IMG/VR virus record: IMGVR_UViG_3300044970_001852 | Span: 1 to 24,140 of that record | DNA: 24,140 bases | Strand: one strand, 5' to 3' | DNA from: a virus | Shown: positions 605 to 21,294 of the stretch, one piece after another | How positions within the stretch are numbered: position 1 is the first letter of the stretch | Layout: each line of letters starts with the position of its first letter | Notes under the pieces: generated by a model | Database searches by the model: none | Seen by the model: only the letters and a program-made list of their open reading frames with translations | Told to the model about the DNA's origin: nothing | Translations under genes and position numbers: made by a program

Positions 605-610
605 TATAAT
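605..610 (+). promoter_or_regulatory. -10 box TATAAT for a leaderless start at 617
   Basis: A consensus TATAAT is followed by six bases and then ATG, so transcription would start at or next to the A of the start codon. No clear -35 box is present; the palindrome at 590-603 occupies the spacer. Confidence 0.6.
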
Positions 611-616
611 GTATAC

Positions 617-766
617 ATGAGTCCAAGACATTTTTCTAGTAGATATGGACCTTATTTCCGTAATGATGGTTTTACAAGACACAATGATTATATACCTCCT
701 GCTAAGGTTTCTATTATAGATAGGGTTAAAGCTTTCTTTAAGTCCCGGGCCAAAAAGCAAAACTAA
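617..766 (+). CDS. small basic hypothetical protein, leaderless
   Basis: A 49-residue, arginine- and lysine-rich protein starts MSPRHFSSRYGPYFRNDG and ends with an amphipathic basic segment (RVKAFFKSRAKKQN). It is the only open frame in the repeat region. It is supported by a TATAAT exactly six bases before the ATG, the pattern seen for other genes here. There is no Shine-Dalgarno sequence. Its net positive charge and position among repeats would suit a DNA-binding protein, but no known fold is visible. Confidence 0.5.
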   Translation: MSPRHFSSRYGPYFRNDGFTRHNDYIPPAKVSIIDRVKAFFKSRAKKQN

Positions 767-867
767 TAACCTAATTAGACATTACGACAGGCGCCAAAAA
801 ATCCCAGAAAGTTTTGCGGGATCTAAAAATCAATACACATAATACCCCCTATATAAAACAATAGAAT

Positions 868-931
868 ATCAAACCTTTTCTCCTGGTTTTTAAATATTTA
901 TCAAACCTTTTATATATTTTTTCCTGGTTTT
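868..931 (+). repeat. imperfect tandem repeat, two units
   Basis: Two units share ATCAAACCTTTT at their left end and TCCTGGTTTT at their right end (868-890 and 900-931), separated in the second by an extra run of A and T. Each carries one AAACCTT heptamer. The intervening DNA is almost pure A and T, as expected for a duplex-unwinding element. Confidence 0.55.
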
Positions 932-1154
932 CTGGGCAAATTTGGATATTTTTTTATAGGGTTTTAAGGTTTGACAAACCATTATATATGTGGTATAAGG
1001 TCATATTGGATATAAAGGTTTGACATATAAGGTTTGGTATGGTAAGGTTTGGCCGCCAGACATTACGAAGCCCCTTATAAAATCGCTCAATAACCCATTT
1101 CCCTCCCTTTTCCTCCACCAAAACCATATATTAAAAATATCAGTAAGATTTATA

Positions 1155-1207
1155 TGTGGATAACCTGTGGATAACTAACATATTTTAGGCTATTTACATG
1201 TGGATAA
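1155..1207 (-). other. cluster of three perfect DnaA boxes
   Basis: TGTGGATAA, the complement of the consensus DnaA box TTATCCACA, occurs at 1155-1163, 1166-1174 and 1199-1207. Each is followed by C. Starts are 11 and 33 bases apart, so all three lie on roughly the same face of the helix. They flank the AT-rich repeat region, an arrangement typical of replication origins that recruit the host initiator. Confidence 0.75.
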
Positions 1208-1213
1208 CTATCT

Positions 1214-1221
1214 GATATGAT
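1214..1221 (+). promoter_or_regulatory. extended -10 (TGA-TATGAT) for leaderless start at 1228
   Basis: TGA directly precedes TATGAT, wait-free of any spacer beyond the single n base, and six bases separate the hexamer from the ATG. The element starts seven bases after the last DnaA box, so DnaA binding could affect it. Confidence 0.55.
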
Positions 1222-1227
1222 GGGTAT

Positions 1228-1314
1228 ATGAAACAACTTCTTATAGGATTATTACTATTATTTCTCTTTGCTAACTACATGGCATATCTACAACATCTAC
1301 GTATGACTCAATAA
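1228..1314 (+). CDS. single-pass membrane micropeptide
   Basis: A 28-residue peptide starts MKQLLIGLLLLFLFANYMAY and ends with a short polar tail. The first half is one hydrophobic helix behind a single lysine, so it should insert in the cytoplasmic membrane. It is supported by an extended -10 box six bases before the ATG and has no Shine-Dalgarno sequence. Its size is like phage membrane micropeptides that modulate host enzymes or lysis, but no specific role can be read. Confidence 0.5.
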   Translation: MKQLLIGLLLLFLFANYMAYLQHLRMTQ

Positions 1315-1345
1315 TTTCCAGGGGATAAACAATCCTGGCTATCTG

Positions 1346-1362
1346 GGATATAGGTCATATCC
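1346..1362. promoter_or_regulatory. short inverted repeat upstream of the 1442 gene
   Basis: GGATAT (1346-1351) and ATATCC (1357-1362) form a 6-base-pair stem around AGGTC. It lies 45 bases before the -35 box of the next promoter. The flanks carry two direct copies of ATCTGGG (1341 and 1367). It may be an operator; no terminator T-run follows. Confidence 0.35.
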
Positions 1363-1406
1363 GTATATCTGGGGTGTATTACTACTAGGGGTAATAGTGC
1401 TTCTTC

Positions 1407-1435
1407 TTGACTTTCCCCCGAAAATTTGAGATAAT
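1407..1435 (+). promoter_or_regulatory. full promoter, -35 TTGACT, extended -10 TGA-GATAAT
   Basis: TTGACT (1407-1412) and GATAAT (1430-1435) are separated by 17 bases, the ideal spacing, and TGA precedes the -10. Six bases later comes the ATG at 1442. This is one of the clearest cases of a promoter placed for leaderless translation. Confidence 0.75.
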
Positions 1436-1441
1436 AGATAC

Positions 1442-1738
1442 ATGTCTATTAAACAAGTTAGAACAAAAAACAATACCTATAGCACTGTCAAGTATGATAG
1501 TGAAGGAAAGATCTTAACCCCAAGCAGACTAAGAGAGCTTAGAAAACTTAAAAAGGTTGCTAAAGAACTTCCTAAAAAGAACCATAAGAAGAAAACTAAA
1601 AGCTCTAAATGGATTAGGCTTGAAAGCAAGTTTGAGGGGGTCTGCTGTGCCTGCAACAACAATATCTATACTGGAACAGAAATCTTATGGAACAGAAAAA
1701 ATAAAAAAACTAAGCATAGATTTTGTGCTACCGTATGA
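1442..1738 (+). CDS. small basic zinc-finger protein
   Basis: The 98-residue protein has two parts. Residues 1-65 are highly basic (several KK and KKK runs) and would bind nucleic acid. The C-terminal third holds CCAC (69-72) followed after about 20 residues by H and C (KHRFC), a pattern for one zinc ion: C-x2-C...H-x2-C. Similar short zinc modules of the form CxxCgxxI..Gt..lWnr...H.fC are common in phage genomes. It starts directly at its promoter without a Shine-Dalgarno sequence and overlaps the next gene by ATGA. DNA or RNA binding is inferred. Confidence 0.75.
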   Translation: MSIKQVRTKNNTYSTVKYDSEGKILTPSRLRELRKLKKVAKELPKKNHKKKTKSSKWIRLESKFEGVCCACNNNIYTGTEILWNRKNKKTKHRFCATV

Positions 1739-1929
1739 AATGTAAAAAATGTGGGATGGAACAGGAAAACCTTGAATATTGGATTGTTCATCAAACCATG
1801 AGTGATAATACTATTTGGTGTGCTAATGCCAGATCTAAAAGAGTTGAAGATATAACTACCGATATTGTTAATAGATATAGGGCTGCAGTTAGATCTCAAT
1901 ATGGGAATAAGAAAAGACATAGGCAATAG
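1735..1929 (+). CDS. small zinc-ribbon-like hypothetical protein
   Basis: The protein of 64 residues starts MKCKKCGMEQENLEYWIVHQ. The CxxC at residues 3-6, HQ near 20 and WC near 30 could bind one zinc ion. The rest is a charged helix ending in a basic tail (GNKKRHRQ). The ATG at 1735 overlaps the stop of the previous gene (ATGA), which argues for coupling; an upstream GTG at 1723 would add four residues. I do not recognise the family. Confidence 0.65.
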   Translation: MKCKKCGMEQENLEYWIVHQTMSDNTIWCANARSKRVEDITTDIVNRYRAAVRSQYGNKKRHRQ

Positions 1930-1946
1930 GAGATATTAACCGATAT

Positions 1947-1961
1947 TGCCCGTGTAGGGCA
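1947..1961 (+). terminator. weak hairpin after the zinc-protein pair
   Basis: TGCCC (1947-1951) and GGGCA (1957-1961) form a 5-base-pair stem with loop GTGTA, followed by a T-rich stretch up to 1986. It lies between the end of one gene and the promoter of the next, so it may end the upstream transcript. The T-run is interrupted, hence low confidence. Confidence 0.35.
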
Positions 1962-2004
1962 TAGGGTGGTTTGTTTGTCTCTATTTTGCGCCGAACTTTA
2001 AATT

Positions 2005-2013
2005 TGATATAAT
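2005..2013 (+). promoter_or_regulatory. extended -10 (TGA-TATAAT) for leaderless start at 2020
   Basis: TGA (2005-2007) directly precedes a consensus TATAAT (2008-2013), and six bases follow before the ATG. The bases just upstream (AATTTGA) match those at the 1442 promoter. No good -35 box is seen. Confidence 0.65.
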
Positions 2014-2019
2014 GTTAAT

Positions 2020-2628
2020 ATGAAAATTCTTGTTCTTGCCCAATCCCGTTCGGGATCTACGGGCTTTCAGGCATGGCTAAAGTCTGAGTTTAATGAACCC
2101 GTAATGCTTGAACCATTTAACCATAACAGGCTTCCACAGGAAGAGCTTGACCTCCAACTAGAAACAGTTAAATCTGATGATGGACTTATCTTAAAATTTG
2201 TAGACAATATGTATTTAGATATGCCACACATAAACGATGTTAATGTTCTTATGGGCTACTTTGATAAAGTCATTGGCCTAACCAGAGAAAATGATTACGA
2301 TTGTGCTTACAGCAGGCTAATGAGTCATCTTTCAGATGATTGGAGAGGATCCCGTCAAACCATAAAAGTAGATCAAGAAACAATAGACTCAAACCTTTTC
2401 CTAATGGATGAGTATACTAAACATGCTCAGCATCATAAGGCTTACATTAGATCGCTACCGATTTTTCAAACCACATATGAAAAAATATATCAGGATAAAG
2501 ATGTTAAGGACCTTATAGACTATTTAGAGATTGAGCCTAAGCACTTAGATTATCTATTTGAGAATAAAAATGTTACCAGCAACTGGAACATGAAGATGTA
2601 TGAATACCACAAGCCTGTGATAGAATAG
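2020..2628 (+). CDS. sulfotransferase-like P-loop protein
   Basis: The 202-residue protein begins with a beta strand and the loop QSRSGSTGFQ (residues 8-17). This matches the 5'-phosphosulfate-binding loop of PAPS-dependent sulfotransferases (PRSGTT-type). TRENDYDCAYSRL at about 88-100 has the Arg and Ser (R89, S98) expected for the 3'-phosphate-binding motif. Such enzymes move a sulfate group from PAPS to a sugar, lipid or protein. It is shorter than most family members. A putative APS kinase at 14844-15602 could supply PAPS, which makes a sulfation pathway plausible. The start sits six bases after a TATAAT with no Shine-Dalgarno sequence. The acceptor is unknown. Confidence 0.7.
   Translation: MKILVLAQSRSGSTGFQAWLKSEFNEPVMLEPFNHNRLPQEELDLQLETVKSDDGLILKFVDNMYLDMPHINDVNVLMGYFDKVIGLTRENDYDCAYSRLMSHLSDDWRGSRQTIKVDQETIDSNLFLMDEYTKHAQHHKAYIRSLPIFQTTYEKIYQDKDVKDLIDYLEIEPKHLDYLFENKNVTSNWNMKMYEYHKPVIE
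2618..2626 (+). promoter_or_regulatory. extended -10 (TGA-TAGAAT) inside the end of the sulfotransferase gene
   Basis: TGA (2618-2620) and TAGAAT (2621-2626) overlap the last codons and stop codon of the upstream gene. Six bases later the ATG of the next gene begins at 2633. Confidence 0.5.
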
Positions 2629-2632
2629 ATAT

Positions 2633-2755
2633 ATGGAAGAAAAATGTTTTTATTGTAATAGGCCTGCTACTCATAACGATTTGGTTAAAGTGGGAGACGA
2701 CTATAAGGTTGCTAATGTGTGCCTAAAGCATATATCTTTTAGTCTTACCAGCTAA
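2633..2755 (+). CDS. zinc-binding micropeptide
   Basis: A 40-residue protein starts MEEKCFYCNRPATHNDLV and has CxxC at residues 5-8 followed by C and H (VCLKH) near 30-33, enough for a single zinc-ribbon site. It is preceded at six bases by an extended -10 box and has no Shine-Dalgarno sequence. It ends four bases before the converging hydrolase gene. Function is unknown; small zinc ribbons of this kind are frequent in actinophage genomes. Confidence 0.55.
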   Translation: MEEKCFYCNRPATHNDLVKVGDDYKVANVCLKHISFSLTS

Positions 2756-2759
2756 TATA

Positions 2760-3524
2760 CTAAGAATAGTTATAGTCGTCTGAAGCTTTAAACATATGTG
2801 TTGAATAATGAGAATACTTTTTTCTTAATGTTTCTTGATCATCATGTAGAAAACTCTCAATCAGTTTATCTATTGGACCATCTTGCTTGTTTAAGTAATC
2901 TAATATAAGATGTGGGGCATCTCTGAATATTAAGAAGGAAGCATCAATATCTTCTGTTTTACACATCTTTATGGTCTGATCAGAGGAGATTCTTTCTTCT
3001 TCATCCCCGCCAAGAATAATAAGATATTCAGTATCTTTTGCAAACTTAATAGTATGATTAACTAAATTTTCTATTCTGTCAACAAAAAACTTAAAGTCCC
3101 CATTAAATCTTTTGGGATCAACATTAAGTATTGTGTATTGTGGTCCTATGGCTAAGCACTTTTCAACCTTTATAAAATTAGAAAGATAGACAGCTTCAAA
3201 CCCACCCATAGACATTCCAGTGGTGTAAACCTTTTTATCTTTAATTAAATCTTTAATTTGTTCTATCACAAACTCTGCTGTAAAGTTATTAAAAAAACTA
3301 ACTTCTGAGTCAACAATATGTATTATGTTTTTATCATTCTTTGTATAAAAATGTAGGCTCTCCCTTGGCATTCTAGGAAGTGCCATAGCAAAGGCAAATA
3401 TGATTATTACAGAGTCTGAGTCATTGTCTATGTGAGATATTGTAATATTTTTATCTGCATAGATACTTTGTTTTTTTTCATTTATTTCTTCTATGGTTAA
3501 ATTTCTGTATGTTTGTTCAGGCAT
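2760..3524 (-). CDS. alpha/beta-hydrolase (esterase-like)
   Basis: The frame could open at 3599, but the best start is the ATG at 3524 (254 residues), seven bases after an extended -10 box. It carries a nucleophile elbow GMSMGG with serine at about 105, an acidic residue in LGGDEEE at about 174 and a histidine in DAPH at about 205, so a full Ser-Asp-His triad is visible. No signal peptide or membrane segment is present. The substrate cannot be read. Its place beside a sulfotransferase-like gene and upstream of a glycan island would suit an O-acyl esterase acting on sugars. It is one of only two minus-strand genes in the first half of the window. Confidence 0.7.
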   Translation of the reverse strand: MPEQTYRNLTIEEINEKKQSIYADKNITISHIDNDSDSVIIIFAFAMALPRMPRESLHFYTKNDKNIIHIVDSEVSFFNNFTAEFVIEQIKDLIKDKKVYTTGMSMGGFEAVYLSNFIKVEKCLAIGPQYTILNVDPKRFNGDFKFFVDRIENLVNHTIKFAKDTEYLIILGGDEEERISSDQTIKMCKTEDIDASFLIFRDAPHLILDYLNKQDGPIDKLIESFLHDDQETLRKKYSHYSTHMFKASDDYNYS

Positions 3525-3531
3525 AATATAA

Positions 3532-3540
3532 AGTATACCA
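3532..3540 (-). promoter_or_regulatory. extended -10 (TGG-TATACT) for the hydrolase gene
   Basis: On the minus strand TGG (3540-3538) precedes TATACT (3537-3532), then seven bases and the ATG at 3524. It lies back to back with the promoter at 3555-3583, so the two transcripts diverge and probably compete. Confidence 0.6.
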
Positions 3541-3554
3541 GAGAAGTTTGGTCC

Positions 3555-3583
3555 TTGACAGCAAGGTTTTGTATAGATATAAT
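3555..3583 (+). promoter_or_regulatory. perfect consensus sigma-70-type promoter
   Basis: TTGACA (3555-3560), a 17-base spacer and TATAAT (3578-3583) match the consensus at all twelve positions. ATG follows after six bases, at 3590. This is the strongest promoter by sequence in the window. Confidence 0.85.
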
Positions 3584-3589
3584 AGATAT

Positions 3590-3694
3590 ATGAATGCACC
3601 TAAGATTATGAATATGGACTGGAGAGCCTTGGGCTATTGGCCAGTATGGAAAAATGGTAAAAAGATATGGGTTAAAGATGAATCCAAAGATTAA
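3590..3694 (+). CDS. tryptophan-rich micropeptide, leaderless
   Basis: A 34-residue peptide starts MNAPKIMNMDWRALGYWPVW and continues KNGKKIWVKDESKD; four of its residues are tryptophan. It is fed by the perfect promoter at 3555-3583, and its ATG lies where transcription should start. No Shine-Dalgarno sequence is present. The 3' end overlaps the next small gene in another frame. A strong promoter driving so short a peptide suggests it matters early in infection, but no function is known. Confidence 0.55.
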   Translation: MNAPKIMNMDWRALGYWPVWKNGKKIWVKDESKD

Positions 3695-3839
3695 ATATAT
3701 GACTTATGATTTTTATGCAGGTGAGTGGCATGGCAATTGTGGTGCTTGTTTTACTGACTTATTTGCCCCCACAAAATCAGAGTATTTAATGCAATTTTCA
3801 AAACACACACACTCAGATAAATGTTTGGGTGGATACTAA
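3678..3839 (+). CDS. small zinc-binding hypothetical protein
   Basis: The frame is open from 3654, but MNPKIKYMTYDFYAG from the ATG at 3678 is a more natural start and gives 53 residues. GNCGAC in the middle and H-T-H-x3-C near the end (HTHSDKCLGGY) can bind zinc. It overlaps the preceding peptide by 17 bases (41 with the longer start). No strong Shine-Dalgarno sequence precedes either start, so it is probably translated by coupling. The family is not recognised. Confidence 0.55.
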   Translation: MNPKIKYMTYDFYAGEWHGNCGACFTDLFAPTKSEYLMQFSKHTHSDKCLGGY

Positions 3840-3849
3840 AACATATCGT

Positions 3850-3878
3850 TTGACTTATGTAGCAAAATAGTGTATGCT
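3850..3878 (+). promoter_or_regulatory. promoter of the SSB gene
   Basis: TTGACT (3850-3855) and TATGCT (3873-3878) are 17 bases apart. The start codon lies 26 bases downstream with AAAGG seven bases before it, so this transcript has a normal leader, unlike its neighbours. Confidence 0.6.
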
Positions 3879-3904
3879 TATAAATAACAAAGAAAGGTAA
3901 CAAA

Positions 3905-4306
3905 ATGTCAAATCCAATTATAACAATGACAGGTCGTATCGGAACAGAACCAGAAATGATTAATTATTCTGGCGGTAAGGGAATTAAATTCCGTATGGTA
4001 ACAAGTGATAGAGTTAAGAACAAATCTGGAGACTGGGAAGATAAAGATACTTCTTGGTGGAATGTTGAAGCATGGTCAAGAGTAGCAGAGCAGGCACAAC
4101 ATGTTCTTAAAAAGGGTCAAGAGATTACGGTTGTGGGAACTATTAGAGAAGAGTCTTATATTGATAAGGCTGGCAATAATAAGTTTGTTACTCAAATTAA
4201 AGCTAACAACATTTCTGTTAGTGTTTATAGCCTACAAAAAAACTTAGTTGGATCTGCGCCAAGTAAAGATAACTCTTGGAGCGTTGATGGTGACAGCCCA
4301 TTCTAA
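3905..4306 (+). CDS. ssb: single-stranded DNA-binding protein
   Basis: This 133-residue protein has the OB-fold layout of bacterial and phage SSB. It starts MSNPIITMTGRIGTEPEM, with a conserved core DTSWWNVEAWSRVAEQAQ (57-74) and GQEITVVGTIREESY (about 92-106), then a polar linker. It ends DGDSPF, the acidic aromatic tip that docks partner replication proteins. It coats single strands during phage DNA replication and recombination. AAAGG precedes the ATG by seven bases. It heads a run of small genes (4308-5101) and is the only clear replication gene in the window, about 3 kb from the candidate origin. Confidence 0.93.
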   Translation: MSNPIITMTGRIGTEPEMINYSGGKGIKFRMVTSDRVKNKSGDWEDKDTSWWNVEAWSRVAEQAQHVLKKGQEITVVGTIREESYIDKAGNNKFVTQIKANNISVSVYSLQKNLVGSAPSKDNSWSVDGDSPF

Positions 4307-4307
4307 A

Positions 4308-4409
4308 ATGTTTTGCTCTGTTTGTGGAACTAAGCTAATTAATTCAGACTGCAATAGTTGTTTTAGTAACTCTAATGCGTTAAAAGAATTTGAGGATGAG
4401 GATGACTAA
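4308..4409 (+). CDS. micro zinc-ribbon protein
   Basis: A 33-residue peptide starts MFCSVCGTKLINSDCNSCFS and carries two CxxC pairs (3-6 and 15-18), a compact zinc ribbon. An acidic tail (EFEDEDD) follows. The ATG comes one base after the SSB stop codon, and the last eight bases overlap the next gene, so it is probably translated by coupling in the SSB operon. It resembles the zinc-ribbon part of larger proteins, but its own role is unknown. Confidence 0.6.
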   Translation: MFCSVCGTKLINSDCNSCFSNSNALKEFEDEDD

Positions 4410-4617
4410 CTGGACTGAAGAACTATCTGATGAACATAAAGAACAGATTTGGCATTTTATTGTCGAAACTGTTAAAGATATTCGTGAACAAATTGCTCAA
4501 GACATTGAGGCTACTAACGGTCTTTGGAAACAAACTAGTGCTGGTAAATCTAGGAAAACTCAAAAAGCATTTGCAGTATCTGCTGCAATCGCAAGGGGAC
4601 AAAATGAAAAACTATAG
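4402..4617 (+). CDS. small helical hypothetical protein
   Basis: The best start is the ATG at 4402, six bases after GAGG, which gives 71 residues starting MTNWTEELSDEHKEQIWHFI. A TTG at 4390 and an ATG at 4396 are in frame. It is charged and helical, with no cysteine and no membrane segment, and ends AAIARGQNEKL. It overlaps the preceding zinc-ribbon gene by eight bases. The family is not recognised. Confidence 0.6.
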   Translation: MTNWTEELSDEHKEQIWHFIVETVKDIREQIAQDIEATNGLWKQTSAGKSRKTQKAFAVSAAIARGQNEKL

Positions 4618-4632
4618 GTTAGGGGGATACCA

Positions 4633-4725
4633 GTGATAAGTGTATTAATAGCAATAGCTTCTTTTGTTGTAGGATATGTTGCATGTTATTTTATTATGAC
4701 ACATAATGTAGATCAAAAAAAGTAA
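4633..4725 (+). CDS. single-pass membrane micropeptide, GTG start
   Basis: A 30-residue peptide begins with GTG at 4633, six bases after the Shine-Dalgarno sequence AGGGGG (4621-4626). One hydrophobic helix covers residues 2-22 (ISVLIAIASFVVGYVACYFI) and a polar tail (THNVDQKK) follows. The good ribosome-binding site and exact fit between flanking genes support it. Function is unknown. Confidence 0.55.
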   Translation: MISVLIAIASFVVGYVACYFIMTHNVDQKK

Positions 4726-4726
4726 T

Positions 4727-5101
4727 ATGAAAATTTGTAGTAAATGTAAAATAAACCTAGAGGATTCAGACTATTCTCCTTCCTCTGGGGGAAAATATTT
4801 AAGACCAGAATGTCGCAATTGTGCTAAAAAACTTTCTAAAGAAAGAACAGAGTTAAGAAAACTTTATGGATACCCGAAAGATGGGTATGTGTGTCCAATT
4901 TGTCTTAAAAATGAAGAAGAGTTAATAGGAACTGGTGGCAATGCAAGTGTTTGGGTAGTTGACCATAACCACACTACAAACACATTTAGGGGTCATTTAT
5001 GTCATAATTGTAATCGAGGCCTTGGAGTTTTTCAGGATGATCTTAATAGATTACAAAGAGCAATAGACTATTTAATTGGCAGCAATAGCTCAGTTGGTTA
5101 G
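4727..5101 (+). CDS. HNH / endonuclease VII-like nuclease
   Basis: The 124-residue protein has an N-terminal zinc pair (CSKC at 4-7 and CRNC at 29-32), a second zinc site (CPIC at 56-59 and CHNC at 92-95) and between them the catalytic WVVDHNHTT (DHNH at 79-82). The spacing C-x2-C...DHNH...G.LC..CN.GLG is that of phage recombination endonuclease VII, which cuts branched DNA. Single-domain versions are common in actinophages as free-standing nucleases. The gene's last 23 bases are also the 5' end of the tRNA gene that follows, including the stop codon inside the D-arm. Confidence 0.85.
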   Translation: MKICSKCKINLEDSDYSPSSGGKYLRPECRNCAKKLSKERTELRKLYGYPKDGYVCPICLKNEEELIGTGGNASVWVVDHNHTTNTFRGHLCHNCNRGLGVFQDDLNRLQRAIDYLIGSNSSVG

Positions 5102-5155
5102 AGCCCCGAACTCATAATTCGGTCGTCGTAGGTTCAAGTCCTACTTGCTGCACCA
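5079..5155 (+). tRNA. tRNA with anticodon CAT (Met, or Ile2 if lysidine-modified)
   Basis: A complete cloverleaf can be drawn: acceptor GCAGCAA/TTGCTGC, D-stem GCTC/GAGC, anticodon stem CCGAA/TTCGG with loop CTCATAA, T-stem GTAGG/CCTAC with loop TTCAAGT, and an encoded 3' ACCA. Anticodon CAT reads AUG, or AUA if the host modifies the C to lysidine. The CTCATAA loop is shared by both types and does not decide. The gene overlaps the 3' end of the HNH coding sequence. Phage tRNAs usually offset codon-use differences from the host. Confidence 0.95.
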
Positions 5156-5176
5156 ATAAAGATTATTAAAAATTTG

Positions 5177-5185
5177 TGGTATAAT
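5177..5185 (+). promoter_or_regulatory. extended -10 (TGG-TATAAT) upstream of the first TauD-like gene
   Basis: TGG (5177-5179) and TATAAT (5180-5185) lie 22 bases after the tRNA. Five bases further is ATG (5191), which opens a four-codon frame rather than the main gene. No -35 box is evident. Confidence 0.65.
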
Positions 5186-5190
5186 TTGGT

Positions 5191-5205
5191 ATGGAGGAAA
5201 AATGA
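5191..5205 (+). promoter_or_regulatory. four-codon leader ORF containing the ribosome-binding site
   Basis: ATG GAG GAA AAA TGA begins at the expected transcription start. Its second and third codons form GGAGG (5193-5197), the Shine-Dalgarno sequence of the oxygenase gene, and its stop overlaps that gene's start (ATGA at 5202-5205). The same layout recurs at 6093. It could be a coupling device or a chance result of the sequence ATGGAGG. Confidence 0.4.
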
Positions 5206-6023
5206 ACTATACTCAACCGATTGAATTTCCAGGACTAGAAAACGTAATAGAAAATGTAAACTTATATAAACAAAAGTTTTTAGATGATTCTATTGTTGTT
5301 TTTAGAAATGCCAACCTAACTTACGACGATCAGTCGTTTTTACATTCTTCTTTAGGAACACCTTTTATTTATTACATTGACACTGAAGGTGACGACAGAG
5401 CAGCTAGATATATTGAAAATCATTCTGAAAGAAATTTAATTGAAACAGCAACATCTAATGATATTTTGTTGCCTTGGCATATAGAACATCTTTACGCAGG
5501 CAATTCAAAAGTAACAGCAACATGGAATATGACAAAATTTACTACAGATATTGAAAATGGAAAAACATACTTTATAGATTGTGAAAAAGCGTATAACGCA
5601 ATGCCAGAAGAATGGAAAGCTTTTTTAAATGCTTGCAAGATCAATAACCCAAACCCAGCAACTGATGAAAATTTAGATGACTTTTCTCCAATTGTAAATC
5701 ATTGGATTACTGGAAACCCAACACTTAGACTTGCACCTAGAAAAAATAACAATAGTGGGTCTACACTTAGATCTGTTTATAATAGAGAAGCAACAGAACT
5801 TGAAAAAGCATTGTTTGAAGAAATCTTTACTTGGTTTGGCAATTACGTTTATGACAATGAAGAAGAAAGAATTGTCCATAAATGGCAACAGGGAGATCTT
5901 TTAATTGTTGACATATTTAAATTAGCCCATGCCGTTACTGGTGGATTTAGCCCAGACGATAGAGAATTTATTGGTATGTGGGGATTTAAGAATCCAACAG
6001 TTCCAAGCAACACTTTGCCTTAA
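5202..6023 (+). CDS. TauD/TfdA-like Fe(II)/2-oxoglutarate dioxygenase, copy 1
   Basis: The 273-residue protein has the order of motifs seen in TauD-type dioxygenases: an N-terminal VVFRNANLT strand, PWHIEHLY with H93-x-E95 as the first metal ligands, GKTYFIDCEKAYNAMP (120-135), then WQQGDLLIVDIFKLAHAVTGG with the distal H243, and R254 eleven residues later for 2-oxoglutarate. It would hydroxylate a small molecule or sugar using O2 and 2-oxoglutarate; the substrate is unknown. Glu replaces the more usual Asp in the first motif, which the family tolerates. GGAGG lies four bases before the ATG. It is a tandem paralog of the next gene. Confidence 0.8.
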   Translation: MNYTQPIEFPGLENVIENVNLYKQKFLDDSIVVFRNANLTYDDQSFLHSSLGTPFIYYIDTEGDDRAARYIENHSERNLIETATSNDILLPWHIEHLYAGNSKVTATWNMTKFTTDIENGKTYFIDCEKAYNAMPEEWKAFLNACKINNPNPATDENLDDFSPIVNHWITGNPTLRLAPRKNNNSGSTLRSVYNREATELEKALFEEIFTWFGNYVYDNEEERIVHKWQQGDLLIVDIFKLAHAVTGGFSPDDREFIGMWGFKNPTVPSNTLP

Positions 6024-6078: not shown

Positions 6079-6087
6079 TGGTAAAAT
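6079..6087 (+). promoter_or_regulatory. extended -10 (TGG-TAAAAT) upstream of the second TauD-like gene
   Basis: TGG (6079-6081) and TAAAAT (6082-6087) are followed by five bases and an ATG (6093). The unit (promoter, leader ATG, GGAG) parallels that of the first copy, so promoter and gene were duplicated together or are under the same selection. Confidence 0.55.
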
Positions 6088-13933: not shown

Positions 13934-14365
13934 TTAAATCACCTTATCTATTTTTTCTGGTAATAGGGTTTTTAATTCTTCTATTGCATCTGATAATATG
14001 CTTATTTGTGTTGCATATGGTTCAATTTCTAATGAACCAAAATCGTTATGATAACTTACCGTATCTTTTGTTTTTTCTATAATACCATCTATTGATTTTT
14101 GAACATCTTCAATATATTGATATGCCCAGTCCCTAGAATCAGAAAGAAATTTAATAAAATTTTCCTTGTGAATATCATTCTCATTTTTAAATTGAACATT
14201 ATTATTGTCAATAAAGTCTTGTAATGATTTATGAGAAATTAATAGTCTTGTAAGTGATTTATTTAATTTATTTATTTTAAGCAATGAAATTAAATAAGCA
14301 AATGCAAAAGACCCAGCCAAGGTAAGGGATGTTGCAAGAATAATATTACTTATTAAAGATCCCAT
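13934..14365 (-). CDS. membrane-anchored coiled-coil hypothetical protein
   Basis: From the ATG at 14365 the protein is 143 residues. One transmembrane helix lies at about 5-30 (SNIILATSLTLAGSFAFAYLISLL), followed by a charged helical region with coiled-coil character to the C-terminus. TATACT sits six bases before this ATG, so it is probably leaderless; an upstream ATG at 14383 would lie before the promoter's start site. It overlaps nothing upstream and heads the last block of the operon (luciferase-like, XapX, holin-like). A spanin- or holin-related role is conceivable but unsupported by motifs. Confidence 0.6.
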   Translation of the reverse strand: MGSLISNIILATSLTLAGSFAFAYLISLLKINKLNKSLTRLLISHKSLQDFIDNNNVQFKNENDIHKENFIKFLSDSRDWAYQYIEDVQKSIDGIIEKTKDTVSYHNDFGSLEIEPYATQISILSDAIEELKTLLPEKIDKVI

Positions 14366-14371
14366 ATTATA

Positions 14372-14377
14372 AGTATA
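14372..14377 (-). promoter_or_regulatory. -10 box TATACT inside the minus-strand operon
   Basis: TATACT (14377-14372, minus strand) is followed by TATAAT and then ATG at 14365. Read with TATACT, the gap to the ATG is six bases, as elsewhere. It would give the genes from 14365 to 12648 their own promoter, separate from the one at 20993. Confidence 0.5.
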
Positions 14378-16315: not shown

Positions 16316-16329
16316 AATTTAGCCCCCAA

Positions 16330-16680: not shown

Positions 16681-17071
16681 TTTTGTTTCCATTCTGTAAA
16701 TTATCTAATATCATTAGCATTTTTTCCATATCATTTTTTGACATGTTTTCTACATCTACTGGTCTTGCTGATGTAGACTCCACTTCTCCACCAATAGCGT
16801 TGGCTACATAAAAAATATTGTCAGATACCCAATAAGCTTCCTGGCCAATTACTATAACTCTAATCATACTCTTTTCTGTGTGTTTTGTCAACTGTGAAAA
16901 ACGTCTTTTTTGATTAGAGGAATCAATTGAAAAAAAATATTTAAGTAACTCATGAGTATCTTTTTGACTATACAGAGTTCTTGACATTTTTTTATTAATT
17001 TTTTTCTTCATTATAACAATTATAGCTAACGATGTTAGCAAAGTCAATATACATGCAATAATGTATTGCAT
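16646..17071 (-). CDS. membrane-anchored hypothetical phage protein
   Basis: The 141-residue protein has one N-terminal transmembrane helix (QYIIACILTLLTSLAIIVIM) followed by a lysine-rich stop-transfer segment, so the rest faces the cytoplasm. SMIRVIVIGQEAYWVSDNIFYVA (about 68-90) is the most conserved-looking part, and the tail is NGNKNDSGSAGNKRI. I recall homologs in freshwater actinophages, always next to small regulatory genes and of unknown function. It may use its aromatic EAYWV...FYVA strand for binding, but this is inference. Confidence 0.7.
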   Translation of the reverse strand: MQYIIACILTLLTSLAIIVIMKKKINKKMSRTLYSQKDTHELLKYFFSIDSSNQKRRFSQLTKHTEKSMIRVIVIGQEAYWVSDNIFYVANAIGGEVESTSARPVDVENMSKNDMEKMLMILDNLQNGNKNDSGSAGNKRI

Positions 17072-17072
17072 T

Positions 17073-17318
17073 TTATTCTAATTCTTTTACCTTAGTTGTT
17101 TTTTTTATATTTTTACCAATATCTTTAGTCTTTAATTCTTCAGAAAGTTTTTCAATTTCTACCTCTAAACTTCTGATCCTAGCTCCAAAGGTTGCTTTTT
17201 CAATCTTTGTTCTGTTAACAATAAGTTGAAGTTCTACATTTTTTAATTCAGCATCGGTAGTTCTTTTAACATAAAACTCCACTAATTGTTTAAAATCTTC
17301 AATATTTAATTCATCCAT
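17073..17318 (-). CDS. coiled-coil hypothetical protein
   Basis: The protein is 81 residues, almost wholly helical, and has heptad-like spacing of hydrophobic residues between charged ones (about 18-65), so a coiled coil is likely. It ends in a basic tail (KNIKKTTKVKELE). It has no cysteine and no membrane segment. It sits one base before the next gene in the operon. Function unknown. Confidence 0.65.
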   Translation of the reverse strand: MDELNIEDFKQLVEFYVKRTTDAELKNVELQLIVNRTKIEKATFGARIRSLEVEIEKLSEELKTKDIGKNIKKTTKVKELE

Positions 17319-17321
17319 AAT

Positions 17322-17696
17322 TTACCCCTTTCTAAAACTAAATGGACTTCCTATCCAAGCTTTTTCTGTTTTTTTCTTTTCACGTTCAACTATTGCTCTT
17401 GACCACGCAAAACCAGCATCTCCACCCCAAGCATCCCACATTATTCTTCCATTAGATGGAAATTCCGGACCATCAAAAAAACCTTTACCTTTTTTATCTA
17501 CTTCGTGACGAGAAAAAAAAGAAAACATTCTTTTAACAGTGCTAAGAGACATTGCTGATCCATTAACGATATCTGTTGCTCTACCCCAACCTACTGGAGT
17601 TCCAGCACCAGTTGCCTTGCCATCTTCTTTCCATTTCAAAGCACGTCTTGCAGCAGCCTTCATTCCAGATGTGGGGGTGTATGTGTCTTCAGCCAT
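17322..17696 (-). CDS. conserved phage protein of the type often joined to head proteases
   Basis: The 124-residue protein has three blocks: SGMKAAARRALKWKEDG (10-26), RATDIVNGSAMSLSTVKRMFSFFSRHEVDKKGKGF (39-73) and GRIMWDAWGGDAGFAWSRAIV (82-102). This arrangement recurs in many phage genomes, often as a domain of capsid maturation protease or portal-linked proteins. Here it stands alone. Its exact role is not established. It overlaps the upstream gene by eight bases. Confidence 0.7.
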   Translation of the reverse strand: MAEDTYTPTSGMKAAARRALKWKEDGKATGAGTPVGWGRATDIVNGSAMSLSTVKRMFSFFSRHEVDKKGKGFFDGPEFPSNGRIMWDAWGGDAGFAWSRAIVEREKKKTEKAWIGSPFSFRKG

Positions 17697-17847
17697 TAGC
17701 TATCACCTTATTTTGTTTTTGTTTGTGTGGGCCCAAATCTGCTTTAATGCTACCATCTTTTCTTAAACGAACAATTCTGCCATTTTTAATTTGCATTGGA
17801 TTAAATTTGTGATTTGAATAATAAGAGCCCGAAGATCTGTTTGCCAT
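17689..17847 (-). CDS. small basic hypothetical protein
   Basis: A 52-residue protein starts MANRSSGSYYSNHKFNPMQI and continues KNGRIVRLRKDGSIKADLGPHKQKQNK. It is rich in arginine, lysine and asparagine. Its ATG shares one base with the stop of the preceding gene (TAATG), and its last eight bases overlap the next gene, so it fits the operon exactly. Function unknown; nucleic-acid binding is possible from charge alone. Confidence 0.65.
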   Translation of the reverse strand: MANRSSGSYYSNHKFNPMQIKNGRIVRLRKDGSIKADLGPHKQKQNKVIANG

Positions 17848-18542
17848 TATTTTTCAATTCCTCTTGGATTAAAAGATCCATCCCAAATATTTTTTGTTGT
17901 AGATTGTGATTCTGACTTATAAGTTCCACCACGACGCTTATACTCTTGGACTACCCAAGAATTTGCAACTGCAGATGGATAAACATCAAACTTATCTTTT
18001 GCTGCTTGAACAACTCTTGCATACAGCTTAGGATTTGAAGGAGTTGATCCACCACGACGTGGTTGAATCATTTCACTATAGTTAGGCTTTTTTGCTTTTT
18101 CCATTTCATTTTCCTTATCTTTTAGTTTATTAACTGGAACACAGTTAGGAACCATTCTTCCATTTTTGTCTTTCATTCCTCTTTGTTCATAACCAACCCA
18201 ACAAGCCTTAGCCATGTTATCCCATTTATCTTCATCTTCATTGTCTGAATAATATGACTTCATTGTTTCTTCTGCATCCATACTGTGTGTATTGATATCT
18301 ATTTTTTGTGCATCTGCATACATCATTCCAATGCTATAAGCCGTTGGCTTCCAGCTATTGTTGTCTTCTTTGTAAACCCTAACAGACATTGCAGGATTTT
18401 CTGGTGGCTTTGATTCAAGAGCATACTCAGATCCAGGAGTTCCAAGAGTTCCTCCCTCAATCATAATGTGTTCAACTACACCATGAATAAGACCTTCTGT
18501 TGTTGTGCCCATAACAAAATCGCCTTCTTTAACTATACTCAT
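17847..18542 (-). CDS. two-domain phage accessory protein (Tudor-like plus DUF5872-like)
   Basis: In 231 residues three conserved blocks are visible. The N-terminal region (EGDFVMGTTTEGLIHGVVEHIM...SVRVYKE...WKPT) has the layout of small Tudor-like barrels. Residues about 111-136 (KACWVGYEQRGMKDKNGRMVPNCVPV) form a second block. The C-terminal block (NPKLYARVVQAAKDKFDVYPSAVANSWVVQEYKRRGG, about 170-207) matches a DUF5872-type motif as I remember it. Such blocks are often fused to phage capsid proteases; no protease residues are seen here. Transcription can start from its own TATAAT six bases before the ATG. Confidence 0.7.
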   Translation of the reverse strand: MSIVKEGDFVMGTTTEGLIHGVVEHIMIEGGTLGTPGSEYALESKPPENPAMSVRVYKEDNNSWKPTAYSIGMMYADAQKIDINTHSMDAEETMKSYYSDNEDEDKWDNMAKACWVGYEQRGMKDKNGRMVPNCVPVNKLKDKENEMEKAKKPNYSEMIQPRRGGSTPSNPKLYARVVQAAKDKFDVYPSAVANSWVVQEYKRRGGTYKSESQSTTKNIWDGSFNPRGIEK

Positions 18543-18548
18543 ATATTG

Positions 18549-18557
18549 ATTATATCA
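18549..18557 (-). promoter_or_regulatory. extended -10 (TGA-TATAAT) with TGA supplied by a stop codon
   Basis: On the minus strand the stop codon TGA of the upstream gene (18557-18555) is the TGn element in front of TATAAT (18554-18549). Six bases later is the ATG at 18542. It would start a leaderless mRNA inside the operon. Confidence 0.65.
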
Positions 18558-18890
18558 GACTTTGCGCTTAAGTAGTCTAATGATTTCTAAAAGAGACCAT
18601 CTTTCTTTATTGGTTAAGCCTGATATATCCTTTTCGTTAAAGGCTTTTGGGGTTAAAACAATGATTGGATCCGCAGAAAATAGGTCTATGTCTATAAACT
18701 GCTTTTCCCACAAATTCATTACTTCTGAATTAACGGCATCTATATGCTCTTTATATAGATCTGGCATAAGGTCTTTTATTTTTGGAGTAAATGAATATAA
18801 CATTTCTCCAGTATCCTCATCCAAGGCAGCAACTTCAAGGCCACCATTTAAAATTAAATCATTTATGATTCTATCTTCTTCACTGTTCAT
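18555..18890 (-). CDS. acidic conserved phage protein
   Basis: The 111-residue protein has AALDEDTGEMLYSFTPKIKDLMPDLYKEH (21-49) as its most distinctive stretch and ends WSLLEIIRLLKRKV. It is acidic, helical, and without cysteine or membrane segments. I recall similar proteins from freshwater actinophages without known function. It overlaps the thioredoxin gene by 11 bases, and its stop codon serves as part of the next promoter. Confidence 0.65.
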   Translation of the reverse strand: MNSEEDRIINDLILNGGLEVAALDEDTGEMLYSFTPKIKDLMPDLYKEHIDAVNSEVMNLWEKQFIDIDLFSADPIIVLTPKAFNEKDISGLTNKERWSLLEIIRLLKRKV

Positions 18891-19131
18891 TAATAAATTT
18901 AACCAACGATTCTCTTGTTTGTGCCCCAGAAATACGACTAATCTCTTTACCGTTTTCCATCAATATAAAGGTTGGAATAGATTTTACTTCAAACCTTTTA
19001 ACAAGCAGTTGTTCGTAATCAGCGTCTATCATTTGAAATTCAAAGCCTTCTTTTTTCATATCTTCAACAATAGGTTTTACCTTTTTACAAGGTGGGCACC
19101 AATCTGCTGTAAAATAAAAAACAGTTTTCAT
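18880..19131 (-). CDS. trxA: thioredoxin
   Basis: The 83-residue protein has the active site WCPPC (C12 and C15) after the strand KTVFYFTAD, the cis-proline in SIPTF (P53) and a final helix. All core thioredoxin elements are present, though it is about 25 residues shorter than bacterial TrxA because the first strand and helix are missing. WCPPC instead of WCGPC lowers the similarity to housekeeping thioredoxins. It reduces disulfides in the cytoplasm; phages use such proteins for ribonucleotide reductase or as polymerase clamps. It overlaps the nuclease gene by ATGA. Confidence 0.92.
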   Translation of the reverse strand: MKTVFYFTADWCPPCKKVKPIVEDMKKEGFEFQMIDADYEQLLVKRFEVKSIPTFILMENGKEISRISGAQTRESLVKFINEQ

Positions 19132-19535
19132 TTGTTATTTTTTGATCTAATCTTAGCAAGCAGCTCAAAATCTTTTATTTTAGTATCTCCAAGGTATCCC
19201 CAAGCATATCCATCATTAATCATTTTATCATTGAGTGAAATTGTATCTCCATTAACATAGAGCCAACCTAGAATGCGACCAAACTTTTCGGTTGAGTTCA
19301 TTTTTTCTGTTTTAATAATAACAGACTTAGCATCTTTTAATTGTTTCTTTAGATATTCTTTAGACTCAAGGCCAAGAGCCTTTTCTTTTAAATCTTTTGT
19401 GCGAGATTCAGGTGTATCAATACCAGCCAATCTTACACGGGACTGAAACAATATATCAAACCCTAAATCAATAATTACATCAATTGTATCTCCATCAACA
19501 ACATTTGTTACATCTTTAACAAAATACTCATACAT
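19128..19535 (-). CDS. thermonuclease (staphylococcal nuclease family)
   Basis: The protein of 135 residues has VDGDTIDV (13-20) and RVRLAGIDTPESR (33-45), with the catalytic set R35, D40, E43 and R87 (KFGRILGWL) all present, and KMINDGYAW near the C-terminus. It is a calcium-dependent nuclease that cuts DNA and RNA to 3'-phosphate ends. No signal peptide is present, so it acts inside the infected cell, for example in host DNA breakdown or recombination. It shares bases with the genes on both sides (TAATG upstream, ATGA downstream). Confidence 0.92.
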   Translation of the reverse strand: MYEYFVKDVTNVVDGDTIDVIIDLGFDILFQSRVRLAGIDTPESRTKDLKEKALGLESKEYLKKQLKDAKSVIIKTEKMNSTEKFGRILGWLYVNGDTISLNDKMINDGYAWGYLGDTKIKDFELLAKIRSKNNK

Positions 19536-19780
19536 TAATTTGCACTCCCTGTTAGTTTATTTTCTATAAGTTTTTCACGCTCGTCAACAACTTCAAGCAT
19601 AAAAGACATCATTTTTGTATAAGTTTCTGGATTATCCATAATTTTATTATAATGATGACTACAAAATAACAAATCGCCAGTAATTCCTGTTACCTTTACG
19701 TAAGCTTGTGCTTCACAGCTATCACAACGATCAAGAGAATTTAATATCCACTCTTTTGGTTTAATTTTTTCATCAATCAT
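19535..19780 (-). CDS. DUF7455-like small zinc protein
   Basis: With start at the ATG at 19780 it is 81 residues; an ATG at 19789 lies directly against the TATAAT and would be lost if transcription began there. DRCDSCEAQAYVKVTGITGDLLFCSHHYNK has CxxC and C-x-H-H, one zinc site of the type found in the actinobacterial DUF7455 family. Function is unknown. The family is another pointer to an actinobacterial host. Confidence 0.75.
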   Translation of the reverse strand: MIDEKIKPKEWILNSLDRCDSCEAQAYVKVTGITGDLLFCSHHYNKIMDNPETYTKMMSFMLEVVDEREKLIENKLTGSAN

Positions 19781-19789
19781 AGTATTCAT

Positions 19790-19795
19790 ATTATA
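19790..19795 (-). promoter_or_regulatory. -10 box TATAAT inside the operon
   Basis: TATAAT (19795-19790, minus strand) lies nine bases before the ATG at 19780 and abuts another ATG at 19789. It could start a near-leaderless transcript for the DUF7455-like, nuclease and thioredoxin genes. No TGn element is present. Confidence 0.4.
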
Positions 19796-19798
19796 CCG

Positions 19799-19981
19799 CT
19801 ACTTTCTGTTGTCGGTGGAATAAAATCCAGAACCATTAAAAACTGCACCTATATTAGAGTATACACGAACCAACCTGTTATTACAAGTATCACATGTATA
19901 CCCAGGATCATCTTCTTTTATTGATCTTTCTTTTACATACCTTTGTGCACAAGGCATACAGTCATATTCATATAGTGCCAT
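19799..19981 (-). CDS. FmdB-family zinc ribbon protein
   Basis: The 60-residue protein starts MALYEYDCMPCAQRYVKER and has YTCDTCNNRLVRVYS followed by GAVFNGSGFYSTDNRK. The two CxxC pairs and the closing G-S-G-F-Y-x-T-D are the signature of the FmdB/CxxC_CxxC_SSSS family of putative regulatory zinc ribbons, usual at 60-110 residues. Its role in phage is unknown; transcriptional or metal control is a guess from family naming. It shares one base with the DUF2061 gene before it. Confidence 0.85.
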   Translation of the reverse strand: MALYEYDCMPCAQRYVKERSIKEDDPGYTCDTCNNRLVRVYSNIGAVFNGSGFYSTDNRK

Positions 19982-20181
19982 TACTTAATTTTTTTTCCAA
20001 ACTTTGCCCAAACTCTTTCATGAAGAAAGTAACCAATGGCTTCCCAGCCTATATAAATAAGAGCACCTAAACTAGCATACTCCCACTCACCAGTAAACAA
20101 ATAAATTACTCCAGCAACACCAACAAGGTGAAAGGTTTCCCAACTTAATGTTTTAAGTAATGTTCTTTTATTTGATTCCAT
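19981..20181 (-). CDS. DUF2061 small membrane protein, copy 2
   Basis: The 66-residue protein has KRTLLKTLSWETFHLVGVAGVIYLF, a second hydrophobic stretch (ASLGALIYIGWEAIGYFL) and HERVWAKFG. The closing H-E-R-x-W and the position of both helices match copy 1 at 14644-14847; the first motif is degenerate (SWETFHLVG for TWRVIGTAD). The two copies probably diverged for different partners. It shares one base with the endolysin gene (TAATG). Confidence 0.75.
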   Translation of the reverse strand: MESNKRTLLKTLSWETFHLVGVAGVIYLFTGEWEYASLGALIYIGWEAIGYFLHERVWAKFGKKIK

Positions 20182-20966
20182 TACTTGACTCCTTTTAATC
20201 TACGAAATGTTTCTTCATCAACAATTCCTGTAACCTTAAGCTTTTCTTTTGTTTGAAAAGCTTTAACAGCCTTTTCTGTTGCTGGACCAAACTCTCCATC
20301 AACTTTAAGTTTTAGCATTGTTTGAATATTTTTTACGCCCTGACCCTTTGAGCCAATTTTTATTGGTTTAAATAGTTTAACTTCAGGAACGCTAACACCT
20401 TGAGACTTTGCAACTTCTGCAAGAGCAACCTTTTTTTCTTCAAGCGTTTTGACTGCTGGTGTATCTGCATCTGGATAATCAATTACCCCATACCCTGCAA
20501 TAAATACAGGAAGACCTTTTTTATTTGGTCCATACGCACGAAGTTTTTTTACACACTCTCCACCGTTTGATTGGCTACCGCTTTTTCCGTCTGCCGTAGT
20601 ATTTCCTTCAATAGTAATACATGTTCCATCACCATTATCTTTTAATACCCAACCAACGTGGTCAATATCTCTTCCTCCAGGAAAGTCAAAAAACACTACC
20701 CATCCTGCTTGTGGCTTATTTCCTTTTACTGGGACCCACTTGTTTTTACTTTTAAATGCTGCAACTCCTGCTGGAGTGTATACCACATTTGGAACTTTAA
20801 CCCCTGCTTGGTTTGCAGTCCACATAACAAATGAACCACACCAAGGCAAAAAGTTAGCTTTTGTAAATGCCCCATACTTTGTTTCATTATCCTTTGGACC
20901 TTCAACAGTTCCTAATTCTTTTTGAATCACTTCTAATAAAAATGCTCTTGTTCCTTTTACTGACAT
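20181..20966 (-). CDS. endolysin: CHAP amidase/peptidase with peptidoglycan-binding domain
   Basis: The 261-residue protein has an N-terminal CHAP domain with the catalytic cysteine in FLPWCGSFV (C43), histidine in DIDHVGWV (H103) and the acidic/polar pair in ITIEGNT (E120, N122). A linker of about 160-195 is followed by a peptidoglycan-binding_1 repeat (KPIKIGSKGQGVKNIQTML...GEFGPATEKAVKAFQ...GIVDEETFRRL). It cuts peptide bonds or amide bonds in the cell wall at lysis. No signal peptide is present, so a holin is needed. AGGAGG precedes the ATG. It opens the long minus-strand operon. Confidence 0.92.
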   Translation of the reverse strand: MSVKGTRAFLLEVIQKELGTVEGPKDNETKYGAFTKANFLPWCGSFVMWTANQAGVKVPNVVYTPAGVAAFKSKNKWVPVKGNKPQAGWVVFFDFPGGRDIDHVGWVLKDNGDGTCITIEGNTTADGKSGSQSNGGECVKKLRAYGPNKKGLPVFIAGYGVIDYPDADTPAVKTLEEKKVALAEVAKSQGVSVPEVKLFKPIKIGSKGQGVKNIQTMLKLKVDGEFGPATEKAVKAFQTKEKLKVTGIVDEETFRRLKGVK

Positions 20967-20992
20967 AAATTATCCTCCTATAGATATACTTA

Positions 20993-21001
20993 ATTATAGC
21001 A
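20993..21001 (-). promoter_or_regulatory. extended -10 (TGC-TATAAT) of the long minus-strand operon
   Basis: TGC (21001-20999) and TATAAT (20998-20993) on the minus strand lie 26 bases before the endolysin ATG, with AGGAGG in between. This is the likely main promoter for genes down to the terminator at 12.6 kb. Confidence 0.7.
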
Positions 21002-21277
21002 CTATGCCGTCTTTTTTGTCAACCTTTTGTGAGTTCGAATCCTGTGGCAATTTGCACAGACTACCTCACATTTTGATATTTCTTTTTTAATTGCTGCCCA
21101 AGAAAATCCATCGTGAATCATTCTAGAAATATTGTATTTTTTATTACTAAGGTGATCAAAATCCAAAACTATATGGTTGCTTTCTCCACAATCTACACAA
21201 CCAGATTTTTCTTTAATTTGTTTAAGGCGTTGTTTAAGCTCTTGTTTACCATATTGAACCAACTCTTTGTCAGTCAT
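21002..21277 (-). CDS. HNH endonuclease
   Basis: The 91-residue protein has CVDCGESNHIVLDFDHLSNKKY (27-48) and CEVVCANCHRIRTHKR (70-85). Two CxxC pairs bind a structural zinc and D-F-D-H...N...C-H-R-I-R-T provides the catalytic HNH/DH-type motif. Short free-standing HNH proteins are common in phages as packaging-related or homing nucleases. It has its own extended -10, eight bases before the ATG, and ends directly before the operon promoter. A structured element lies just upstream at 21306-21388. Confidence 0.88.
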   Translation of the reverse strand: MTDKELVQYGKQELKQRLKQIKEKSGCVDCGESNHIVLDFDHLSNKKYNISRMIHDGFSWAAIKKEISKCEVVCANCHRIRTHKRLTKKTA

Positions 21278-21285
21278 AGATCTTA

Positions 21286-21294
21286 ATTATATCA
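21286..21294 (-). promoter_or_regulatory. extended -10 (TGA-TATAAT) for the HNH gene
   Basis: On the minus strand TGA (21294-21292) precedes TATAAT (21291-21286); eight bases separate it from the ATG at 21277. The mRNA would be leaderless or nearly so. Confidence 0.65.

Follow-up and report, generated by a model that had tools for sequence, protein, structure and literature searches.

Does transcription of some genes in this phage DNA begin on the start codon itself? The question is raised by the window, that is, the whole 24,140-base virus record IMGVR_UViG_3300044970_001852 (IMG/VR class 'linear' or unstated, about 33% G+C), in which an earlier note had picked out ten TATAAT-like hexamers lying 6–8 bases before ATG codons and proposed leaderless messages. 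The ten sites (Table 1) are as described there: the gap between hexamer and ATG is 6 nucleotides (nt) in eight of them, 7 at 3524 and 8 at 21277, and TGn (T, G and any base) stands directly 5' of the hexamer at 1228, 1442, 2020, 2633, 3524, 18542 and 21277, its place being taken by GTG at 617, AGA at 3590 and GTA at 14365. At 14365 and 3524 a second hexamer (TATAAT and TATATT, respectively) touches the ATG at gap 0, so the promoter register at both sites is a choice. The best reading, to which we assign a probability of roughly 85%, is leaderless transcription by the host sigma-A. Host-type sigma-A promoters would be set so that transcription begins on the A of the gene's ATG, with the -10 hexamer at -12 to -7 and its recognition aided either by an extended -10 (TGn) or by a -35 element resembling TTGACA, 17 bp away; the mRNA would have no 5' leader and the ribosome would begin on the 5'-terminal AUG, as in other Actinobacteria.

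Promoter-like hexamers are placed at a fixed distance before start codons, both in the window and in its relatives. For the window, 226 ATGs, no more than three from any open stretch and each at the head of 25 or more open codons, were scored for a strict hexamer, in which T1, A2 and T6 are fixed and at most one mismatch is allowed. Eight strict hexamers lie at gap 6, compared with a mean of 1.2 in dinucleotide-preserving shuffles; none of 300 shuffles reaches the observed rate, and the other gaps from 0 to 30 hold 0–5 strict hexamers each. Relatives were collected by two scans, with the 18542 protein and the endolysin protein, and the best 80 loci of each were taken (160 loci). Removal of contigs with at least 10% of their 21-mers common to an earlier contig left 59 non-redundant contigs (902 kb, 1,503 ATG genes); a larger non-redundant set holds 88 contigs (1.30 Mb, 2,145 ATG genes). 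Genes were called with our own codon-score caller rather than a standard gene finder, and contigs G003, G004 and G015 were used without their last 10,000, 390 and 83 bases respectively. The search for upstream motifs in related phages that the earlier note had proposed finds TATAAT at gap 6 before 67 of the 2,145 ATG genes and 0–16 times at any other gap; the corresponding counts in the 59 contigs are 45 and, at each other gap from 0 to 30, 0–10. The peak is one base wide, with 8 (59 contigs) or 12 (88 contigs) occurrences at gap 7. Among 191 non-ATG genes of the 88 contigs a single one has TATAAT at gap 6, and in the 59 contigs GTG, TTG and seven other triplets give no comparable peak there, while all 34,265 ATGs of these contigs together give 72 at gap 6 and 9–37 at the other gaps from 0 to 25. 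By the strict hexamer, 144 genes of the 88 contigs, belonging to 70 families, have the gap-6 arrangement and are called leaderless below. A pattern count in 14 phage records (TATAATN6ATG 102, reversed-pattern control 23) lends weak support, the base order of the control being different. As a side observation, the triplet GAT has 60 TATAAT at gap 12 in the 59 contigs; the contexts are nearly all distinct, and the count is for this reason provisionally read as reading-frame periodicity.

When the upstream regions are aligned, positions -35 to -30 favour a TTGACA-like sequence, a spacer of 17 bp follows, and there is a preference for G at -14 and for T at -1. The T at -1 is present in 52 of 70 leaderless families vs 24% of other genes, in which A predominates; transcription usually starts on a purine that a pyrimidine precedes. 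Shine-Dalgarno (SD)-like motifs are depleted, occurring in 15% of the 144 leaderless calls vs 52% of other ATG genes. TGn is found in 72 of the 144, and the -35 match of these averages 2.85 of 6 positions, near the shuffled value of 2.54; the remaining 72 average 4.39 of 6 (p = 1e-8, related genes counted separately). With one gene per family the difference is smaller (3.1 for 40 with TGn vs 3.93 for 30 without). Half of the 144 thus have the extended -10 form, TGn with a weak or absent -35, and the other half have a better -35 instead, an either-or that is expected of sigma-70 promoters.

These promoters are also found in very narrow places. By our own gene calls about 91% of the genome is coding, and 45 of the 144 leaderless genes (10 of 70 with one per family) start 7–15 nt past a same-strand upstream gene, a spacing that puts the upstream stop codon inside or beside the -10. 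In the commonest junctions the distance from the end of the stop codon to the ATG is 15 nt for TAG or TAA (27 genes) and 12 nt for TGA (7 genes). The promoter would fit into the 12–15 bp between two genes, and one family would use the upstream stop as its TGn; as a general device this was rejected, since it is confined to that family and its 7 genes in the non-redundant set. In another family (family 45; G003 51958 and relatives, about 65 residues), 22 of 30 members are leaderless, and in most of the members listed the -35 is a TTGAC within the coding end (GGTCC..TTGAC) of the gene upstream.

The 18542 family allows one promoter to be followed through many orthologs. Its protein is weakly DUF5872-like (under the Pfam cut-off), and in the window its TGn is the TGA stop of the upstream gene 18890–18555. 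Members with too little upstream sequence, matches shorter than 300 nt and identical matched proteins were left out; 114 had room upstream, and 70 distinct ones, among them the window's own, make up the set. A TATAAT-like hexamer is kept at the junction in 69 of the 70 and missing in one, and the ATG follows at gap 6 in 27, at gap 7 in two and at gap 23–26, behind an AGGAGG-like site, in 40. Of the 67 members classified first, 59 read TGATATAAT. At the positions equivalent to +1 to +3 the 40 leadered forms read ATA (29), AGA (4), GTA (3), TAG (2), ACA (1) and TAA (1), so that the predicted +1 is a purine in 37 of 40. Members that start ATGCCA are found in both states. A quick protein tree implies eight or more changes of state, though 23 of its 67 inner branches lack support and recombination may have contributed. 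The promoter and its +1 thus appear to stay constant while the start codon moves, and a leaderless start would be a gene-by-gene, evolutionarily interchangeable way to begin a transcript. A further, tentative and somewhat doubtful idea is that leaderless versus SD-led initiation is a tuning device, toggled by evolution on a fixed promoter of which -10, TGn and +1 stay. Equally tentatively, +1 to +3 would on this idea be either ATG (leaderless) or mostly ATA, followed by the AGGAGG-like site. The leader would, if this is true, be an adjustable dial on expression strength or on initiation-factor dependence during infection, and many natural promoter pairs are available for testing.

The same layout occurs in the likely host order. 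The window contains a WhiB gene, and its metalloprotease has one partial match (69% over 42 residues) to a 'Candidatus Nanopelagicales' metagenome-assembled genome (MAG), at the end of a contig; together these point to Actinobacteria as hosts, and the phage group is uncultured, its hosts being probably freshwater Actinobacteria. In 291 kb (20 stretches) of the Nanopelagicales MAG of about 1.4 Mb (44% G+C), TANNNT stands at gap 6 before 38 of 223 ATG genes, at gap 7 before 11 and at other gaps before 0–7; 7 of 42 GTG genes have it at gap 6.

Several observations weigh against leaderless transcription by sigma-A, or limit how far it extends. The position of +1 and leaderless translation are deduced from what is known of Actinobacteria together with the spacing, the conservation and the base preferences. 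A loose one-mismatch count over all 969 ATGs of the window has no peak (13 at gap 6, 8–23 at other gaps from 0 to 25), so that the signal is limited to likely gene starts; such counts in the window were dropped in favour of counts at gene starts, and these start positions depend on our own caller. At ten other gaps strict hexamers number 5–26 per gap (mean 13.6), so about one in ten of the 144 calls is due to chance and about 130 genes (6%) stand above it. Sixteen of the 144 start less than 7 nt past, or inside, the upstream open reading frame (ORF), some gap-6 matches (AGGAGG-TATAAT-ATG in L015, L025 and L036) probably have an SD-led start at a nearer ATG, and within families starts often mix gap 6, a far hexamer and none. 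The exact pattern TGNTATAATN6ATG is found in one of 41 host-family genomes, which speaks against plain copying from the host; the hexamer of the host, however, is TANNNT. Nor is TGn specific to leaderless sites: its share is alike at TATAAT boxes with gap 6 (25 of 47) and with gaps 12–30 (34 of 56), so that in these phages it is a trait of promoters in general. Within 45 nt of an ATG gene there are 127 TGnTATAAT boxes, of which 36 are at gap 6 and 21 more at gaps 7–9.

Conservation of the individual sites is uneven. Bases 1–23,902 of the window match a 57,917-base record (G002) at 99.4% (blastn), with zero differences between 1,000 and 23,500; the sites at 1228, 2633 and 3590 are invariant in G002 and count as single observations. 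For 2020 and 3524 no independent relatives were found, the sole related viral contig for each being the same phage, and the 1442 site is not conserved, one of five distinct copies being leaderless (from the same phage), two SD-led and two neither. At 617 hexamer, gap and ATG are unchanged in G002 despite nonsynonymous changes in 12 of 50 codons and one synonymous change, a divergence that may reflect fast change or recombination. Relatives of 14365 with TATACT (L084, L086, G004) or TATAAT (L190) have gap 6 and TTGACA upstream; in its family as a whole (family 61) the gap is 6 in 4 of 46 and 7 in 6, and under a looser rule, which admits doubtful hexamers, 24 of 105 are leaderless, 30 SD-led and 51 neither.

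An alternative, which we consider unlikely, is that transcription begins 1–5 nt before the ATG and produces a very short leader without SD pairing. Bacterial start sites do vary by a few bases, and the HNH gene at 21277 belongs to a family that fits this description. In 112 copies an ORF follows the RNA element described below; here (of equal hexamers, the one nearer gap 7 was taken) the gap is 6 in 3, 7 in 40, 8 in 30 and 9 in 24, with no hexamer in 15; with 94 copies at gaps 7–9, the family may be leaderless or have a short leader, of 1 to about 3 nt. The start at 19780, at gap 9, is likely near-leaderless as well; in its family (family 49) gap 6 occurs in 6 of 43 and gap 9 in one. Against a general offset of this kind stand the width of the gap-6 peak in genes, a single base, with T at -1 and A at +1.

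In the earlier note the leaderless genes were taken for a special class, mostly small proteins, perhaps expressed first. The leaderless promoters proposed there are well supported by sequence, through the gap-6 peak, the -35 or TGn elements, the T at -1, the SD depletion, the orthologs and the peak in a host-order genome; the special class is not. SD-like sites are present, as noted, at the SSB, endolysin and Hsp20 genes, and by our script's rule none of 144 distinct endolysin copies is leaderless (114 SD-led, 30 neither). The bias towards small proteins is absent (family medians 136.5 and 101 residues, p = 0.63), and genes with a perfect TATAAT are longer (151 and 108, p = 0.005). We consider it quite improbable that the leaderless genes constitute an early regulon for which host polymerase and 70S ribosomes suffice. 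Six of the ten sites do belong to a cluster at the left, where most genes are small and unknown, and promoters this close to consensus could conceivably act at once; however, ten hand-picked families of the 70 have mixed functions (ferritin/Dps-like, 2OG oxygenase, endonuclease VII, glutathione-peroxidase-like, methyltransferase-like and a weak tail-spike match, the rest unknown), the 21277 gene adjoins the endolysin, the same gene is SD-led in relatives and a host-order genome has the same layout.

Chance placement of TATAAT-like hexamers before ATGs in an AT-rich genome is highly improbable, since the base composition and the flat loose count that speak for it are outweighed by the shuffles (1.2 vs 8), by the absence of the peak in relatives at other gaps and triplets and by retention of the 18542 promoter, and it is refuted for the whole set, whereas the single sites 1228 and 2633 could still be chance.

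The promoter analysis also led to a structured RNA common in these phages, an element of about 100 nt located between hsp20 and the HNH gene. In 48 aligned copies the 11-bp outer stem is unbroken, with changes on both sides in 8 of the 11 pairs; the outermost pair is mismatched in one of 113 copies. A -10-like hexamer lies 3–15 nt before the stem in 83 of 113 distinct copies vs 9 at a control position, and is preceded most often by the triplet TAG (30 of 83); the distance from hexamer to stem is 41 nt in the window and 3–10 in most relatives. The core is found in at least 119 IMG/VR stretches (another copy is L250:2383-2494). The HNH gene is its neighbour in 110 of 112 cases, and two copies precede a glutathione-peroxidase-like gene; many of the loci were found through the HNH protein, so this neighbourhood is partly a selection effect. 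Rfam 15 gives no match for the element in the window or eight relatives at E up to 1, blastn none in 50,697 phage records, and its model (R1) nothing in 151 host-order genomes under strict filters and without a positive control in the run; a literature search on such RNAs gave nothing relevant among the matches listed. The covarying element, with a predicted promoter of its own, is a candidate new phage RNA family. tRNA genes occur in five of eight RNA loci scanned, in two directly before the element.

Table 1. Promoter-like sites and the RNA element in the window
Feature	Span	Strand	Remark
TATAAT 605-610, gap 6, ATG 617	605..619	+	49-residue ORF 617-766
TGA+TATGAT 1213-1221, gap 6, ATG 1228	1213..1230	+	candidate 27-residue hydrophobic ORF
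TTGACT 1407-1412, 17 nt, TGA+GATAAT (hexamer 1430-1435), gap 6, ATG 1442	1407..1444	+	98-residue ORF
TGA+TATAAT 2005-2013, gap 6, ATG 2020	2005..2022	+	202-residue protein
TGA+TAGAAT 2618-2626, gap 6, ATG 2633	2618..2635	+	within last codons of gene 2020-2628; 40-residue ORF
TGG+TATACT 3540-3532, gap 7, ATG 3524	3522..3540	-	254-residue protein
TTGACA 3555-3560, 17 nt, TATAAT 3578-3583, gap 6, ATG 3590	3555..3592	+	34-residue ORF
TATAAT 5180-5185, gap 5, ATG of 4-codon ORF 5191-5205	5180..5205	+	from sequence; not in the earlier note
TAAAAT 6082-6087, gap 5, ATG 6093 of short upstream ORF		+	not in the earlier note; ORF overlaps start of 6103 gene, similar to the TauD-like one
TATACT 14377-14372, gap 6, ATG 14365	14363..14377	-	143-residue protein
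TGA (18557-18555) as TGn, TATAAT 18554-18549, gap 6, ATG 18542	18540..18557	-	231-residue protein
TATAAT 19795-19790, gap 9, likely ATG 19780	19778..19795	-	alternative ATG 19789 abuts hexamer; not in the earlier note
TGA+TATAAT 21294-21286, gap 8, ATG 21277	21275..21294	-	91-residue HNH-like protein
Conserved RNA element	21292..21434	-	TATAAT 21434-21429 right behind hsp20 TAG stop; model match 21394-21292
RNA outer stem	21387-21377 / 21317-21307	-	11 bp

Outside these features, the window differs from G002 in bases 1–499 and diverges from it at the right end, with 98 differences in 23,500–23,902 and no alignment further right; this end (23500–24140) lies at the 5' end of a metalloprotease gene, where G+C is highest. 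Between 470 and 1200 there are few genes and, by eye, many AAACCTT or AAGGTTTG-like words. A tRNA-Met was ruled out by eye as an initiator tRNA, its first base being paired and its anticodon stem lacking the three G-C pairs.

Annotators of this phage group should allow for leaderless starts in about 6% of genes when they choose start codons, and the leaderless set perhaps includes very short ORFs missed by gene finders. Conserved with two alternative 5' ends, the 18542 promoter offers a natural experiment in the persistence of leaderless initiation, a question that Zheng et al. (2011; PMC3160421) approached across whole genomes.

No survey of leaderless genes in this phage group was found in the part of the literature covered, as judged by titles and the beginnings of abstracts. 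The design itself is already known: on the best reading, these phages use the leaderless sigma-A arrangement of their host. In Actinobacteria more than 20% of genes are leaderless (TA-led) (Zheng et al., 2011; PMC3160421), for mycobacteria a 5' ATG or GTG is stated to be both necessary and sufficient (Shell et al., 2015; PMC4633059), and leaderless mRNAs are able to start on 70S ribosomes (PMC9031893). The phage genes resemble the actinobacterial TA-led genes, in which a -10-like signal precedes the start by about 10 bp, an SD is lacking and the start codon lies at the mRNA 5' end (PMC3160421, PMC4633059); a -10-like hexamer at a fixed distance of about 6–7 nt before the start codon is found here too. 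They differ in that the TA-led genes are cellular and have TANNNT, whereas the phages mostly have TATAAT or TATACT with TGn or TTGACA, at about 6% of genes. The 4-codon ORF 5191–5205, of which the TGA overlaps the ATG (5202) of a TauD-like gene (ATGA overlap), resembles the coupled leaderless mini-ORFs of mycobacteria (PMC4633059). In Deinococcus-Thermus, TANNNT about 6–7 bp before ORFs has been reported to serve as the -10 of leaderless transcripts, with eGFP tests (PMC12340547); that is another bacterial phylum, and the word 'phage' is absent from the main text of the paper. Among phages, mycobacteriophage Cluster O has SigA-like promoters with +1 predicted at the first start-codon base (PMC4351075), and Adephagia gene 90 has a predicted leaderless transcript (PMC11373665); both reports, as far as their available text goes, concern few promoters per phage and note no switching among orthologs. 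The 'Ca. Nanopelagicales' phages (PMC10202952) are likewise freshwater actinophages with WhiB but, compared by description, they differ in having 44.7–44.8% G+C, genomes of about 39 kb and a sigma-70 factor of their own.

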